Below the pieces are notes generated by a model. It worked only from the letters and a program-made list of their open reading frames with translations. It did no database searches and was not told the origin of the DNA. A DNA stretch of 64,000 nucleotides from Eubacterium sp. (GTDB taxonomy: Bacteria; Bacillota; Clostridia; Lachnospirales; Lachnospiraceae). Made by a program: the position numbers and the translations under genes. Where the stretch lies: NCBI GenBank assembly GCA_017539165.1, contig JAFYHN010000020.1:1-64000 (forward strand). Reading direction: 5' to 3'. Within the stretch, counting starts at the first letter, position 1; every line of letters starts with the position of its first letter. Shown in pieces: positions 55,444 through 63,242 of the stretch.

Positions 55444-56289
55444 TCAGTCTTTATCAATCTTTCCAATCTTCTTAATAGGAGTAAGACGGAACACCGCCCT
55501 TCCCACTATTCGATCTCTATCAATATCACCAACATCAGAGAAACGACTGTCTCGACTGTCGTTTCTGTTATCACCTAGAACGAAATATTCATCCTCACCA
55601 AGAGTATGAGGCTCGCTCGCAGTTCCGCTGTCAGTTATAATTTCTTTACCGTAACTTTCAGTCAGTCTCTGTCCATCAATGATTATAGAACCATCACTGG
55701 TAATCTGAACTGTTTCTCCCGGAAGTCCAATGACTCTCTTGATGTAGAAATCATTGTCATCATATGGGAAAACAATGATATCAAATCTCTTAGGATCAGT
55801 GAAATGATATGTGAACTTATCAATCCACAGATTATCACCATTATTGAGTGTATTCTCCATAGAGCATCCATTAACAGTTGTTCGCTGGCCAACATATGTT
55901 ATAATGCAGTAACATATGATAATGACAATTCCTATATATATAATAAGACTAAGCAATTCTTTTACGATATTAACATCCTGATCAACTTTTTTCTCAGGCT
56001 CCTTCTCCTTTTTAAGGATTGAGGAATCAAACTTTTCTTCTCTTTCCTCTTCAGTTTTTCTATCTCTAACAACTGCATCAAGATTATCAGATGTATTTCT
56101 TTCTGCATCTCTTTCAGCATTGAATCTTGCAAGATCTTCTGCGTTTGGTCTGGCAGATCTTCTTGTAGATTTCTTTTCCTGTTTAAGTCTGATTTTTTCC
56201 TGTTTCTTATGTTCCTTCTCTTCTTCGTAGCTCATTTCCTCTGCCCACTTGGCAAAGTCAGAGCGTCTATCCTCTGAATCAAATGGCAT
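55444..56289 (-). CDS. lepB: Signal peptidase I with long charged N-terminal extension
   Basis: A 281-residue type I signal peptidase. The catalytic part follows a single membrane helix (about 113-134): the nucleophile is S143 in NGCSMENTL, the general base K184 in DFYIKRVIGLPGE, and box E is GDNRNDSRDSR. Unusually, the first 108 residues are a Lys/Glu/Arg-rich, probably coiled-coil cytoplasmic extension. It starts 21 bases after rbgA; a second lepB lies on the other side of rbgA. Confidence 0.94.
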   Translation of the reverse strand: MPFDSEDRRSDFAKWAEEMSYEEEKEHKKQEKIRLKQEKKSTRRSARPNAEDLARFNAERDAERNTSDNLDAVVRDRKTEEEREEKFDSSILKKEKEPEKKVDQDVNIVKELLSLIIYIGIVIIICYCIITYVGQRTTVNGCSMENTLNNGDNLWIDKFTYHFTDPKRFDIIVFPYDDNDFYIKRVIGLPGETVQITSDGSIIIDGQRLTESYGKEIITDSGTASEPHTLGEDEYFVLGDNRNDSRDSRFSDVGDIDRDRIVGRAVFRLTPIKKIGKIDKD

Positions 56290-57156: not shown

Positions 57157-57759
57157 TTACCTTCCGATTTTTCCTCTTTTTTCCTTAGGCGATAAGCGAT
57201 AAACAATCTTGCCTTTTATCTCCGACTTCTGAACATTTCCAAAGTTAGCATATCTCGAATCTTCGCTATTACTGGTATTATCACCTATACAGAAGTACTC
57301 TTCATCTCCAAGTTTAACACCATCTTCAAGTACACCCGGTGAATTAATATGAGAATAAGGCAGATCTTCACTCACCTGTTTTCCATTTATTACAAGTCTT
57401 CCTCCGACAACAGATATATTGTCACCCGGAAGCGCAATCACTCTCTTCAGATCATAGTAATTATTTTCACCGATACGTTTAATAGCGACGATATCATTAC
57501 GTTTAACTCTCCCGAACAGATAAGACAGTTTATTAACTATCAAAACATCACCATCATGAAGTTCAGATTCCATAGAAGGCCCAGTCATATACACGGTCTG
57601 ACCACAGAACTGAATAAGGCCATACCCCAGAATAACAGCAGTAAAAACTATCAAAAATGTATTCGAAAACGAACGAATAAAAGAAGGCTTTTGTACCTTC
57701 TTATCTTTCTTCTGAAGTCTGAAATCATGAGATTTTCTTCTCTTAACTGTCCTTCTCAT
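57157..57759 (-). CDS. lepB: Signal peptidase I
   Basis: A 200-residue type I signal peptidase of ordinary size. A basic N-terminus and one membrane helix (about 33-51) precede the nucleophile S62 in TGPSMESELHDGD, the base K105 in YYDLKRVIALPGD, and box E GDNTSNSEDSR. It cleaves signal peptides outside the membrane. It differs from the second copy (55444-56289) by lacking the long charged extension. It starts 70 bases after rplS, past the rplS terminator. Confidence 0.95.
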   Translation of the reverse strand: MRRTVKRRKSHDFRLQKKDKKVQKPSFIRSFSNTFLIVFTAVILGYGLIQFCGQTVYMTGPSMESELHDGDVLIVNKLSYLFGRVKRNDIVAIKRIGENNYYDLKRVIALPGDNISVVGGRLVINGKQVSEDLPYSHINSPGVLEDGVKLGDEEYFCIGDNTSNSEDSRYANFGNVQKSEIKGKIVYRLSPKEKRGKIGR

Positions 57760-58305: not shown

Positions 58306-58334
58306 AGTATATCATATATACTTTAATTCTGCAA
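58306..58334 (-). promoter_or_regulatory. Promoter of rplS
   Basis: TTGCAG (58329-58334), 17-base spacer, TATACT (58306-58311), minus strand. The -35 lies inside the end of the upstream gene. Confidence 0.7.
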
Positions 58335-61067
58335 GCATTTTTTATACTCAACCGAGAAATCAGTATGTGCCTTCGCAAGCAACTTCCTAACTGAAGCATA
58401 AAACATCTTCGCTTTTTCAAACTGCTCCTGTGTTACCCCAACATATTTATCCAGAAATGTATTTTCATCTAAACCAGTTTTTTCAAAGTAATCATTGTAG
58501 TATTTTTCTACACGATCATAATTCTTTACAACCGCTTTAGACTCAGAACTTATATCATCCATATTCTCAAGCTGTTCATATACCAGGTTCTTATAATAGA
58601 TACTCTCATAATAATCCCACAGTTCACGAAGAGCTTCTTCGTAAATTCTTATCTGAGTATTCTCATCAAGGTCTATATAGAAGGTACAACTTATATCTGT
58701 AGGCTCCAGAGTTACATAGAGTGTTTCATCAGCATACTTCTCTAGTCCGAGAGTATTCTTTGGCACAACATACTCTACTTCCTGCTTATCTCCAATACTC
58801 ATATTCAGAAGAGCATCATCAAGAACTTCGATAACACCACATTTGCCAACTGTAACACTTGTATTCTCCATCTTAAGGACTTGTTTTCCATCTTTATCCT
58901 TGACAAAGATATTGAGGAATACCGAATCAAGCCTCTGAATCTTCTTTCTTCCATGGAGATCTCTCTCAGCAACTGCAGTAGTCTTACCGATTCTGTACTC
59001 AGCCAGCTCTTTTGCCTTTGCTATAACAGATTCATAGTTTCCGTTTAAGAGTTCATTTGATATAGCAAGATCCTCTTCTGATATCTCTTCTCTTTCATTA
59101 AAGAGTTCATATAATGAAGGACCACCCTTATAAGAATCCTTCTTTACTACATCATAATATGTAAGAGTACCTCGAAGAGCCTTTACTTCTTTTGCATCAC
59201 CTATATAGTATTTTGCAGAAAGCTTATTGAGACAGTAGCTGTCATCTTCCTTATGATACGGGACACTGAAGTATATACCCTTATCTGACACACGGCCTCT
59301 AAATATCTGTCCATTGTAGGAAAGGTCCTTGTAAGGGAAAAACTTTCTGGAATCCTCAACGGCGTACATCATTAGATTAGATACGCCCGGCTGTCCGATA
59401 GTATAATAAGCTCGTTTACCTTTATCATCATTCCAGCCAATTCTATAGTAGATACTGTTACCATCAAGATGAACTCCTGACTGAGGAGTCATCTGATAAG
59501 CCGGAAGATATATATTCATATCAGAATTATACCCACTCTCATCAAGCATCTTATCGATAGCTTTATCAAGCCAAGCATATTCGTAATTCGTAACTCCACC
59601 ATCACCAAAGTATCTGTCTTCAGGGACATTTTCATAATTCATGGTCTTCCCGCCACCGATAGGAACCTCATCAAACCAGAATCTTGTTACCGGGTCAACA
59701 GTATTAAATGTCTCTATAAACATCAGCGCAGCTGTGACTATTGCAACAGTATTGAAAAGCCACTTCTTTGAAACATTATCTAGAAGAATGCACATAAGCA
59801 TCACAAGACATACTGCAAAGAAAGTATTATAGCGTTCATGAGGAGATATCTTAAATACAACACCGAACGCTCCAAACAACGTCATCGCCCCAACAATGCC
59901 AAGCAGAGAAGCCATTCCGTCTCTCTTCATTACAGGCTTACGAGTCTTACGATATCTAACAACTATAATGATAAACGATATTATAATGAAAAATGAAACA
60001 ATCCACGCAAAGTTTGTGAATAGAAACTGCTTCATACGAATAGTTATATAAGTATAGCTGAGTCGTAAAGCATTCTCATTATAAGTAGACTCACTCCAAT
60101 CTCGTGCGTTGAGCTTTTTAAAGAAGAAAAATACAGCACCCGATACAGTTGCAATCCAGAACGAACTCCGTCTCAGCACGTTCTTAATCTTCTCTCCAAA
60201 CTTACCTTTATATGTCACAAAATCATACAGTATCCTCATACCATAAAATCCGCATATGATGAGTGTCGACGTCTCTTTCACCAAAACAAGGTTTATAATC
60301 ATCGCACATTCAAGCACATACTTCTTCTTAGAACCGAAATATATAGCATATATAAAGAAAAGAAGAAGAAAATAATCCGGAGTATCATACGCACTAAGCC
60401 CATAAAATATCGGAACGCAGCTTATCATGAGCGTGCCAAAAAAAGCCCTCGCATCCGAAAGTTTCCAGACATTTCTAAAAATACTATAAATACAAACTAT
60501 ACCAAACATCGTAAAAATAAGCTGCCAAATATTTACTGCACCAATATCTCTAGGAAAGATAAACTGAGGAATTGCATTTATAGATGAATAGGCATAATTA
60601 ACATGCGCACTAATAGAAAACCATTCAAGGAAATTCTTGAAATGAAAATTGTATTCATCACATGCAGTTCCTATACGATAAAAATACTCTCCTGCATCCC
60701 ATCTTGCTTTCGTTCCTATCATAGGGATACGCATAGAAAGAGTTATAAGAAACAGAATCACAAAATATATTTTAGTTGATATAGAAGATCTATTTTTACT
60801 TGATAGAGAATCATCTTCTAAATCATTGGTTTTTGCTTTTTTTCTAAATACGCCAGCCTTTATACCGACAACAAATATTGAAACCAAAAGAACTATAAAT
60901 ACAGCGAAAAAAAAGCCCGGAAATAAATACGATTTAAATCCGTCAGCCGGTAATCCATATCTTATAATCGCCGCAACCTGAAACATAACCGGAAAGATCA
61001 TTGCAATCTCAAGCTGCACAAGAATATCAAAGATTTTATTAAGTCTATTATTTTTTAAATGTTCCAT
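58323..61067 (-). CDS. GT-C-like membrane protein fused to FKBP/trigger-factor-like tail
   Basis: A 914-residue protein. Residues 1-455 hold 10 to 12 membrane helices. The first large outside loop has RWDAGEYFYRIG with D124, the acidic position typical of GT-C glycosyltransferases (PMT/ArnT-like) that use lipid-linked sugars. About 456-712 is a soluble, presumably extracytoplasmic region I do not recognise. Residues about 713-793 look like an FKBP prolyl isomerase domain (VIEVLDDALLNMSIGDKQEV, VTLEPTDISC), and 797-914 is helical with DENTFLDKYVGVTQEQFEKA, resembling the C-terminal part of trigger-factor-like proteins. The frame is continuous. The ribosome binding site is weak. Confidence 0.75.
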   Translation of the reverse strand: MEHLKNNRLNKIFDILVQLEIAMIFPVMFQVAAIIRYGLPADGFKSYLFPGFFFAVFIVLLVSIFVVGIKAGVFRKKAKTNDLEDDSLSSKNRSSISTKIYFVILFLITLSMRIPMIGTKARWDAGEYFYRIGTACDEYNFHFKNFLEWFSISAHVNYAYSSINAIPQFIFPRDIGAVNIWQLIFTMFGIVCIYSIFRNVWKLSDARAFFGTLMISCVPIFYGLSAYDTPDYFLLLFFIYAIYFGSKKKYVLECAMIINLVLVKETSTLIICGFYGMRILYDFVTYKGKFGEKIKNVLRRSSFWIATVSGAVFFFFKKLNARDWSESTYNENALRLSYTYITIRMKQFLFTNFAWIVSFFIIISFIIIVVRYRKTRKPVMKRDGMASLLGIVGAMTLFGAFGVVFKISPHERYNTFFAVCLVMLMCILLDNVSKKWLFNTVAIVTAALMFIETFNTVDPVTRFWFDEVPIGGGKTMNYENVPEDRYFGDGGVTNYEYAWLDKAIDKMLDESGYNSDMNIYLPAYQMTPQSGVHLDGNSIYYRIGWNDDKGKRAYYTIGQPGVSNLMMYAVEDSRKFFPYKDLSYNGQIFRGRVSDKGIYFSVPYHKEDDSYCLNKLSAKYYIGDAKEVKALRGTLTYYDVVKKDSYKGGPSLYELFNEREEISEEDLAISNELLNGNYESVIAKAKELAEYRIGKTTAVAERDLHGRKKIQRLDSVFLNIFVKDKDGKQVLKMENTSVTVGKCGVIEVLDDALLNMSIGDKQEVEYVVPKNTLGLEKYADETLYVTLEPTDISCTFYIDLDENTQIRIYEEALRELWDYYESIYYKNLVYEQLENMDDISSESKAVVKNYDRVEKYYNDYFEKTGLDENTFLDKYVGVTQEQFEKAKMFYASVRKLLAKAHTDFSVEYKKCLQN

Positions 61068-61122: not shown

Positions 61123-61151
61123 AATATAATACATATGTATCAATTTGTCAT
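61123..61151 (-). promoter_or_regulatory. Probable promoter of the GT-C/FKBP fusion gene
   Basis: ATGACA (61146-61151), 17-base spacer, TATATT (61123-61128), minus strand, between the ispH terminator and the gene. Confidence 0.55.
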
Positions 61152-61161
61152 CACTAAACCG

Positions 61162-61195
61162 CAAAAATACCCTGAGAGAAAAACCTCTCAGGGTA
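61162..61195 (-). terminator. Intrinsic terminator of ispH-S1
   Basis: Perfect 11-base arms TACCCTGAGAG (61168-61178) and CTCTCAGGGTA (61185-61195), followed by TTTTTG on the minus strand. Confidence 0.92.
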
Positions 61196-61211: not shown

Positions 61212-63242
61212 TTACTCAGCGTCAACAGTTTCCTCTGCAGCAGCAAGTACATCATCTACAGGAATAGACTCTGCAATATCTTCGCTTACAGGAACTTCCT
61301 CTGTCTCCTCTGAAGCTTCTTCAGCGTCCTCAGGCATCTGATCCTTCAGAAGAGCCTTGATTGAAAGGCTAATCTTCTTATCAGGAATTCTGAGATCAAC
61401 AACCTTAGCCTCGATCTCCTGTCCGCTCTTAAGAACATCTGATGGCTTCTCAATGTGCTGAAGTGCAATCTGTGAAACATGAAGGAGAGCGTCGATACCA
61501 GGCTCAAGAACAACGAATGCTCCAAAGTCTGTCATACGAGCAACCTTACCCTTAACAACTGTTCCAATTGCATACTTCTCTTCAGCTGAAAGCCATGGAT
61601 TAGCATCATCAAACTTAAGTGAAAGTGCAATCTTATTACCATTGATTTCTTTAATGAAGCACTTAACTGTGTCACCAACCTTGAAAATCTTTCTAGGATT
61701 TTCAACTCTTCCCCATGACATCTCTGAGATATGAAGAAGTCCATCAGCACCACCAAGATCAACGAATGCTCCGAAATCTGTGATATTCTTGATTGTCCCT
61801 TCAACAACATCACCAACTTTAATTCTTGAGAAAAGTTCCTCAGCTGCAGCAGCCTTAGCTTCAGCAACGATTTTCTTTCTGTTACCGATAACTCTTCTCT
61901 TGCGTGGCTCATATTCTGTAAGTACGAACTCAACTTCCTGGTCGAGGTACTTAGAAAGATCTCTTTCAAATGTATCAGATACAAGACTAGCTGGAATGAA
62001 TACTCTGCACTCGCTTACCTGAACACTAAGTCCTCCTGAAAGAACCTGTGTAACCTTACCCTTAAGGATAGTTCCGTTATTGAATGCTTCTTCAAGCTCA
62101 GCGTATGCCTTCTCTGCTGCTACTCTCTTATGTGAAAGTAAAACCTGTCCATCACCATCGTTTGTCTTTATAACCTTAACAGTTATAGGATCTCCTGGCT
62201 TTACTACTGTTGTAAGATCAACAGGTGTGTTGGAATACTCATTAGCAGTAACAATTCCGTCGGACTTGTAGTTAATATTTACAACTAATTCATCTGGCTT
62301 AACAGTTATTACCTCTCCTTCAATCACCTGTCCAGGTCTAATTGAAACAACAGGACTTTCATCTTGTAATAATTCTTCAAAACTTTGTTCTGACATACTG
62401 TTTTGAACCTCCTTAATAATGTAATTTGGGGTAGATGCCCCAGCAGTAATACCTACCCTACTAGCGGATTCAAAAACAGTTAAATCCAAATCAACGAGTG
62501 TCTGTATATAGTAAGTATTGTTACATTTCTGTCTGCTTATCTCATATAGTTTTTGTGTGTTTGAACTGTTCCTACCTCCGATAACTATCATAGCGTCAAC
62601 CTCGCCAGCCAGTTGCTCGGTCTCCTTCTGACGTTCTTCGGTAGCATTGCAAATTGTTTTACAAACATTAACATTATAATATCTATCTTGCAAAACTGCA
62701 ACTAATTCTTTAAATTTTTTTAAAGAAAATGTAGTCTGAGCAACTACAGTCATGTTTTTTCCAGTCATATCGGGAAGTGCATCGATATCGCTGATGTCGT
62801 TTATTACATAAGGTTCGTTAACCGACCACCCTATCGTTCCTTCAACTTCCGCATGACCCGGATTACCGATAATAAGAATCTCATCTCCAGCTTCTGATTT
62901 TTCTTTGACGATCTTATGAATATTCATGACGAATGGACAGGTCGCATCAACCACTTCCATCCCTGCGTTCTGAATAGAATCATAAATATCTTTACCAACG
63001 CCATGAGATCTGATTATTATCTTGGAGCCCTTCGGTATGGAATCAAGTTCACTAATATCTTCTATGATCCCAACACCAGATTCTTCAAGTTTCTTTGTAA
63101 CCTCTTCATTATGAATTATAGGTCCAAACGTAAAAACTTTCTGACTGCTGTCAGCACAGCTTTTGGCCTCGTCAAAAGCTTTATCTACAGCTTTCTGAAC
63201 TCCGAAACAGAATCCAGCTTTTTTTGCAAGTATAACTTCCAT
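61212..63242 (-). CDS. ispH: IspH (HMBPP reductase) fused to four S1 RNA-binding domains
   Basis: A 676-residue two-part protein. Residues 1-282 are IspH, which makes IPP and DMAPP from HMBPP in the MEP pathway, with the three 4Fe-4S cysteines C12 (KAGFCFGV), C102 (DATCPFV) and C198 (KTICNATEERQ). Residues about 300-630 hold four S1 domains; the third and fourth (KNITDFGAFVDLGGADGLLH, ARMTDFGAFVVLEPGIDALL) are best conserved. An acidic tail follows. The fusion is known from Clostridia. The join at M283 has AAGGAGG 11 bases upstream, so the S1 part might also be made alone. It starts 18 bases after cmk. Confidence 0.96.
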   Translation of the reverse strand: MEVILAKKAGFCFGVQKAVDKAFDEAKSCADSSQKVFTFGPIIHNEEVTKKLEESGVGIIEDISELDSIPKGSKIIIRSHGVGKDIYDSIQNAGMEVVDATCPFVMNIHKIVKEKSEAGDEILIIGNPGHAEVEGTIGWSVNEPYVINDISDIDALPDMTGKNMTVVAQTTFSLKKFKELVAVLQDRYYNVNVCKTICNATEERQKETEQLAGEVDAMIVIGGRNSSNTQKLYEISRQKCNNTYYIQTLVDLDLTVFESASRVGITAGASTPNYIIKEVQNSMSEQSFEELLQDESPVVSIRPGQVIEGEVITVKPDELVVNINYKSDGIVTANEYSNTPVDLTTVVKPGDPITVKVIKTNDGDGQVLLSHKRVAAEKAYAELEEAFNNGTILKGKVTQVLSGGLSVQVSECRVFIPASLVSDTFERDLSKYLDQEVEFVLTEYEPRKRRVIGNRKKIVAEAKAAAAEELFSRIKVGDVVEGTIKNITDFGAFVDLGGADGLLHISEMSWGRVENPRKIFKVGDTVKCFIKEINGNKIALSLKFDDANPWLSAEEKYAIGTVVKGKVARMTDFGAFVVLEPGIDALLHVSQIALQHIEKPSDVLKSGQEIEAKVVDLRIPDKKISLSIKALLKDQMPEDAEEASEETEEVPVSEDIAESIPVDDVLAAAEETVDAE

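Follow-up and report, generated by a model that had tools for sequence, protein, structure and literature searches.

How glycosyltransferases that act outside the cytoplasm find an acceptor protein in its unfolded state is, to our knowledge, an open question for many bacterial systems. This question is raised by a gene of Eubacterium sp. (Bacillota, Lachnospiraceae), located at positions 58323-61067 on the minus strand of a stretch of 64,000 nucleotides (assembly GCA_017539165.1, contig JAFYHN010000020.1, positions 1 to 64,000), hereafter the window, in which a GT-C type membrane glycosyltransferase continues into a tail resembling the chaperone trigger factor. On balance, it appears probable that the gene product is an extracytoplasmic GT-C glycosyltransferase whose trigger-factor-derived module holds a secreted polypeptide, be it acceptor or partner, at the enzyme.

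Architecture of the fusion protein

The gene consists of one unbroken frame of 914 codons plus stop, as the initial annotation had stated, with the minus strand as the coding strand; frame 1 of the plus strand is interrupted by many stops across the same interval. Homologues of the entire protein are 34-36% identical and, together with the shuffle controls described below, establish that the fusion is not a chance feature. Nothing was found to suggest that two separate genes had been joined by an error of assembly or annotation, most of the genomes being draft assemblies; as the architecture recurs in separate assemblies, whole in eight genomes of the genus including the single-contig genome G005, this explanation is refuted and its probability is practically nil. 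Orthologues keep both halves, a comparison which the initial annotation had proposed. The two findings that the initial annotation had named as refuting it, a predicted tail structure without such folds and orthologues exposing an artificial fusion, were looked for and neither was obtained.

At the N-terminus, two additional membrane helices (residues 1-79, 60831..61067; AlphaFold2 helices 2-37 and 44-79) precede the GT-C glycosyltransferase core (residues 88-457, 59697..60806), all parts of the gene lying on the minus strand. The 10 to 12 membrane helices claimed initially agree with the 10 helices of a strict hydropathy window but are exceeded by the 13 helices set by hand on the AlphaFold2 model, 11 in the core and two at the N-terminus. 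The GT-C fold itself is supported by the multi-helix membrane core of the window protein and by a match of residues 170-246 to Pfam PMT_2 (PF13231; 27.5 bits, cut-off 26.1). In the Pfam scan of the homologues, four score 20-24 bits on this model, under the cut-off, and L002, L013, L049 and L050 have no PMT_2 match, L002 and L049 having no Pfam match whatsoever; identity to the Pmt1-Pmt2, Pmt4 and ArnT structures is 8-11%. The motif RWDAGEYF was read correctly at the outset and occupies residues 122-129 (60681..60704) in the first outside loop; D124, which 19 of the 20 aligned members of the family share, is by analogy the presumed catalytic acid of this extracytoplasmic loop. An outward soluble domain follows (residues 458-680, 59028..59696, delimited by alignments), in front of and within which the model is poor at 454-497; up to about residue 640 it is common to tail-less relatives, whose profile match runs to about position 645. 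Topology and loop charge suggest that the tail lies outside the membrane on the same side as D124, in line with the extracytoplasmic location proposed for it, and, since the additional N-terminal helices are even in number, the orientation of the core would be unchanged by them.

The trigger-factor-like tail

The C-terminal 215 residues appear to derive from a trigger-factor-like chaperone. In the AlphaFold2 model, FKBP-type strands (698-797) are followed by four helices (802-913), close to the segments 713-793 and 797-914 that had been assigned to these folds from the letters alone; the predicted local distance difference test (pLDDT) score of the tail model is 85.8, with most 10-residue blocks of the region above 80 and dips to 59-77. 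The FKBP-fold domain (residues 698-797, 58677..58976) is thus assigned by homology and model, and the helical part (residues 802-914, 58326..58664) by its homology to the initial portion of the C-terminal domain of trigger factor. Compared separately with trigger-factor-like proteins, the FKBP part reaches a probability of 96.6 (best of 100 column shuffles 2.1) and the helical part 92.4 (best of 100 column shuffles 5.1). Pfam FKBP_C matches residues 708-765 of the window protein with 16.8 bits, or 19.5 bits with the tail alone, at a cut-off of 21.1; three homologues exceed this cut-off (23.8, 25.1 and 26.9 bits) and seven of eight fused tails are matched with an E value of 1 or lower. The succession of FKBP domain and helical domain is that of trigger factor, with about the first half of the C-terminal domain present; no Trigger_N was found in the Pfam scans of the window protein, the homologues and the tails, the position ahead of the tail being taken by the GT-C enzyme. 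Across the tails (8 rows), 18 columns are invariant.

The initial annotation had equipped the enzyme with its own prolyl isomerase, a proposal that an alignment of nine fused tails with 13 stand-alone relatives does not support. In the numbering of FKBP12, with pocket residues which we take to be Y26, F36, D37, W59, Y82 and F99, and with F46, I56 and G58 as further positions compared, we regard the alignment as firm from I56 to W59 but as looser from Y26 to F46. Phenylalanine at the F36 and F99 positions (12/13 relatives each), glycine at the G58 position (13/13) and an aromatic residue at the W59 position (12/13) are all missing from the nine fused tails, which uniformly carry an aliphatic residue at the W59 position. 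The D37 position, acidic in 12/13 relatives, is acidic in the tails only in two near-identical rows of nine (glutamate), the Y26 position is aromatic in 2/9 tails and the F46 position is variable among relatives and tails alike. Two positions speak against a loss of the pocket: tyrosine at Y82 is found in all 13 relatives and still in five of nine tails, and an aliphatic residue at I56 in eight of nine tails. That the tail gives a protein glycosyltransferase a working prolyl isomerase outside the cytoplasm is, given the absence of the F36, G58, W59-aromatic and F99 equivalents from every tail and the rarity of an acidic D37 equivalent, very improbable. As judged from homology and model, the tail keeps the chaperone fold with most of the isomerase site gone and, having kept the fold, is probably still able to hold a polypeptide. 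This suggests that a trigger-factor fold has been moved onto the outer side of a membrane enzyme and most of its isomerase site discarded.

Distribution and origin

Matches at E 1e-9 or better were obtained in 11 of 61 genomes of the genus, in 12 copies, of which ten are complete; contig ends truncate the copies of G374 and G004, and nine of the ten complete copies carry the whole tail without a frame break. In the family and order searches the two best candidates were scored per genome, so that counts are lower bounds; the order-wide search gave matches in at least four of 392 genomes, the window's own included, with no new tail-bearing case, and an 801-residue protein of G682 that is longer at the N-terminus. 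Searching the phylum with the tail, 69 of 398 genomes matched, the longest frame besides that of the window being 658 codons and thus too short for another such fusion. A frame of 2634 codons in G231 resembles a secreted repeat protein and was taken as a chance match. Plasmid and phage records gave no match. G071 encodes a protein related to the GT-C half (L050:5410-8181) whose C-terminus is prolonged by some 265 residues of another, unrecognised kind; a further relative, in G323 (L053), is extended at the N-terminus instead.

In the tail tree, ten fused tails group apart from 14 lipoprotein-type relatives and trigger factor (support 92/97, not starred, with a long branch for L049), and the tree names no donor. 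Of the 14 tail loci from the family search, 13 were inspected by eye; all 13 have a signal sequence and 12 a lipobox-like cysteine. An origin of the tail from the cell's own cytoplasmic trigger factor is not favoured. Tail tree and GT-C tree alike divide short forms, which lie at rplS, from long forms, which lie elsewhere; the GT-C tree leaves the window row unplaced, and in the tail tree this row joins the short forms at no more than 83/69. A single fusion event, inherited together, would be the simplest reading of these trees. The fused copy is additional, since the genome of the window (G000) also encodes an ordinary trigger factor as well as a lipoprotein resembling trigger factor; the lipoprotein gene (L082:721-2091, contig C101) shows by eye a lipobox-like motif and lies upstream of a GreA-like gene.

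The putative sugar-donor gene cluster

Long forms are found directly after a gene for a family 2 glycosyltransferase (GT2) and before genes for a membrane protein (M2), RmlC and a Wzm/Wzt-like exporter. Ahead of the GT2 the order is RfbF, RfbG, RfbH and a reductase/epimerase. This order is entire in L015 and L018 and present from RfbG onward in L014 and L016; contig ends interrupt it in L012 and L017, and L013 has no intact reductase frame. In L015, RfbF, RfbG, RfbH and RmlC each score above the NCBIfam cut-off, and genes of the other loci were assigned by their like starts. The records with long forms are NE2001, AC2031, UBA3850, UBA4381, RUG12891 (cut) and one further uncultured Lachnospiraceae metagenome-assembled genome; the record of a form devoid of the FKBP part is RUG12023. 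The genome of the window harbours on contig C30 (L131 8485-16147), apart from the window gene, RfbF, RfbG and RfbH above cut-offs, the reductase, GT2, M2 and an RmlC-like gene, with GT2 and M2 abutting and no fusion gene between them.

The cluster GT2 has two C-terminal hydrophobic stretches (235-253 and 269-287), the one feature to suggest that the fusion protein would take its sugar from a lipid-phosphate donor. In G373, this gene appears split into two frames (L134:11302-12215), by damage or sequencing error.

M2 measures 731-1016 residues in long-form genomes (L015:9144-11444, L018:9071-12118) and a bare 553 residues in the window genome; that of L015 is extended by a charged segment at the N-terminus and by a Thr/Glu-rich one at the C-terminus. 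Its hydrophobic stretches and a WFDPDELD motif had led to its consideration as a second GT-C enzyme, but in the absence of a Pfam or NCBIfam match and with only four segments by strict hydropathy we describe it simply as a membrane protein. Used as a cluster marker at E 1e-15 or better, M2 occurs in 10 of 61 genomes, nine of them with the fusion; neither the cluster nor this joint occurrence formed part of the initial annotation. The fusion without M2 is found in G004 and G374 (58 and 69% complete), and M2 without the fusion in G030 (89% complete, rplS not found); among 31 good genomes both are present in the same six (G000, G005, G016, G366, G372, G373). In G000, G016 and G373 the two lie apart, the GT2-to-M2 junction of G016 being a contig break. 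Carriers and non-carriers are interspersed, as judged by rplS identity. G361 has two clusters, and with a contamination of 6% this double content may be a mixture.

Genomic neighbourhood and divergence

Short forms (those of the window genome G000, G016, G373, G361 and G004) adjoin rplS and, where the contig reaches, lie between ispH-S1 and rplS. With rplS loci available for 30 of 53 rplS places, the fusion is present at five, S1 adjoins rplS at 17 that lack the fusion, and at eight neither is within reach. Upstream in the window, in the same direction, are genes which we take by sequence reading to be cmk and, as a gene of its own at 61212-63242, an ispH that continues into repeats of ribosomal protein S1; downstream are presumably rplS, a signal peptidase gene, ylqF, a second signal peptidase gene and rnhB. 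By eye, the former fusion joins IspH, the 4-hydroxy-3-methylbut-2-enyl diphosphate reductase, and S1 repeats in one frame of 676 residues on the minus strand, with similar long frames in G016 and G373; IspH-S1 fusions occur in clostridia. The two signal-peptidase-like genes (55444-56289 and 57157-57759, minus strand, by eye) enclose the ylqF-like gene within 2.5 kb.

An intrinsic-terminator-like hairpin with 12 pairs and a T run follows the ispH-S1 gene (61168..61195, minus strand), such sites numbering six in the window and 1.4 in shuffles. A promoter-like site, by consensus match only (ATGACA-17-TATATT, 61123..61151, minus strand), lies about 55 bases before the start codon; as such matches are no commoner in the window (16) than in shuffles (13.6, sd 3.5), it is weak evidence. 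Hairpin and promoter-like site together indicate that the fusion gene may be its own transcript.

Compared with the same loci of G016 (L010) and G373 (L011), the fusion protein is 36% identical, whereas the products of cmk, ispH-S1 and rplS are 83-88% and those of lepB, ylqF and rnhB 63-74% identical. The cluster GT2, on the other hand, is 84-90% identical to the L015 copy in four other carriers, the pieces of G373 reaching 87 and 76%. Donor-making is thus conserved beside a diverging transferase, a pattern that would fit a change of acceptors as well as weak constraint.

Proposed function and alternative explanations

By the known pathway, RfbF, RfbG and RfbH together with the reductase would lead to a cytidine diphosphate (CDP)-3,6-dideoxyhexose. 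In the proposed mechanism, these enzymes would make the CDP-activated sugar, the cluster GT2, putatively of the PgfS/ArnC kind, would load it on polyprenyl phosphate in the cytoplasm, and the GT-C core would use the lipid-linked donor on the outer side by means of D124. The tail, with its chaperone fold kept but its chemistry lost, would hold a polypeptide outside at the enzyme. In its most specific version, offered tentatively, the protein would be a bacterial protein O-glycosyltransferase, its fused pseudo-isomerase catching secreted polypeptides for a GT-C site that adds 3,6-dideoxyhexose from the polyprenyl-phosphate donor. The coupling of glycosylation to folding suggested initially stays a conjecture. 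Several findings weigh against these proposals. AlphaFold2 confidence is low at 118-125, around D124. Of the profiles proposed for comparison at the outset, Trigger_C matches none of eight fused tails. The tail evolves fast, and in one homologue (L013:5998-8184, G372) the FKBP part is cleanly missing with the helical end kept, two M2-like genes (546 and 731 residues) following. In the family search (299 genomes, two best candidates scored in each), proteins related to the GT-C half were found in at least 15 genomes besides that of the window, and of these 15 only G267 has the tail (1/15). Among NCBIfam models PgfS scores highest for the cluster GT2, with 173-174 bits at a cut-off of 500 (copy of the window genome 174, E 3.1e-51), and GT2 relatives occur in 38/61 genomes at E 1e-60, so that the GT2 on its own is not specific. 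The co-occurrence of M2 and fusion (Fisher p 3e-8) is uncorrected for kinship. Finally, as the cluster also holds the exporter and M2, the acceptor may be a glycan.

The presence of the Wzm/Wzt-like exporter, the co-occurrence with M2 and the changed pocket residues would also suit an enzyme that decorates an ATP-binding cassette (ABC)-exported polysaccharide, with the tail as a docking adaptor to M2, the exporter or the Sec machinery; its FKBP fold would then serve as a scaffold, as that of human FKBP11 does at the translocon. This possibility, rather doubtful in our view, overlaps in part with the holding of a polypeptide. It has to accommodate that G000, G373, G361 (contig C25) and G030 have the GT2-to-M2 cluster without a fusion between, that in G000, G373 and G361 the fusion gene is located at ispH-rplS, such separation indicating that close operon linkage is not needed, and that most relatives in other genera are without the tail. 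The holding of a polypeptide by the tail does not depend on the nature of M2 and is unaffected by how M2 is read. Alternatively, the tail might be a decaying passenger left by a fusion that happened once, with neither its FKBP part nor its helical part still of importance, as the clean loss of the FKBP part in G372, the pocket changes and the fast divergence (36% against 63-88% for the neighbours) could be taken to indicate; with the full tail retained in nine of ten complete copies, a confident tail model, the helical end retained even in G372 and the invariant tail columns, this is unlikely.

Relation to known systems and significance

PMT/ArnT-type GT-C enzymes (PMT_2; Pmt1-Pmt2, Pmt4, ArnT) are without a trigger-factor module in the literature found, and a search of titles and abstract openings, covering few subscription journals, gave no report of a GT-C/PMT and trigger-factor fusion. 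Within this literature, the fusion appears to be an unreported architecture built from known kinds. Trigger factor and exported trigger-factor-like Lachnospiraceae proteins have the FKBP domain followed by the C-terminal helical start in the order of the fused tail. From these proteins the fused tail differs in having neither the N-terminal ribosome-binding domain nor a lipobox, in a shortened C-terminal domain, in the loss of most of the isomerase pocket and in its covalent attachment to a membrane enzyme. In Streptococcus mutans, the GT2 PgfS and the PMT_2-family membrane protein PgfM1 modify surface adhesins (PMC5856776), a pairing like that of the cluster GT2 and the fusion protein; Pgf differs in having an epimerase, CDP-dideoxyhexose genes are not described in the passages of that paper used here, and the word chaperone is absent from it.

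Human FKBP11, in the passages used of PMC12804085, is an FKBP-fold protein on the lumenal side of the Sec61-oligosaccharyltransferase (OST) translocon, argued to be no isomerase there. Cells without it show no defect in GRP94 hyperglycosylation, so that according to these passages a role in glycosylation is not established (PMC12804085). As in the fusion, an FKBP fold is placed beside a GT-C glycosyltransferase; in contrast, FKBP11 is a separate eukaryotic protein acting in trans with N-glycosylation and without the trigger-factor helical part. If true, an O-glycosyltransferase with its own client holder would parallel in bacteria what FKBP11 and OST form at the human translocon, with the two parts linked covalently. 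The question of how the acceptor is found becomes testable, since a PMT-like enzyme and a trigger-factor module are joined in one chain, with the FKBP-less homologue and the tail-less relatives as controls. In this Lachnospiraceae bacterium, a glycosyltransferase may carry its own protein-gripping device.
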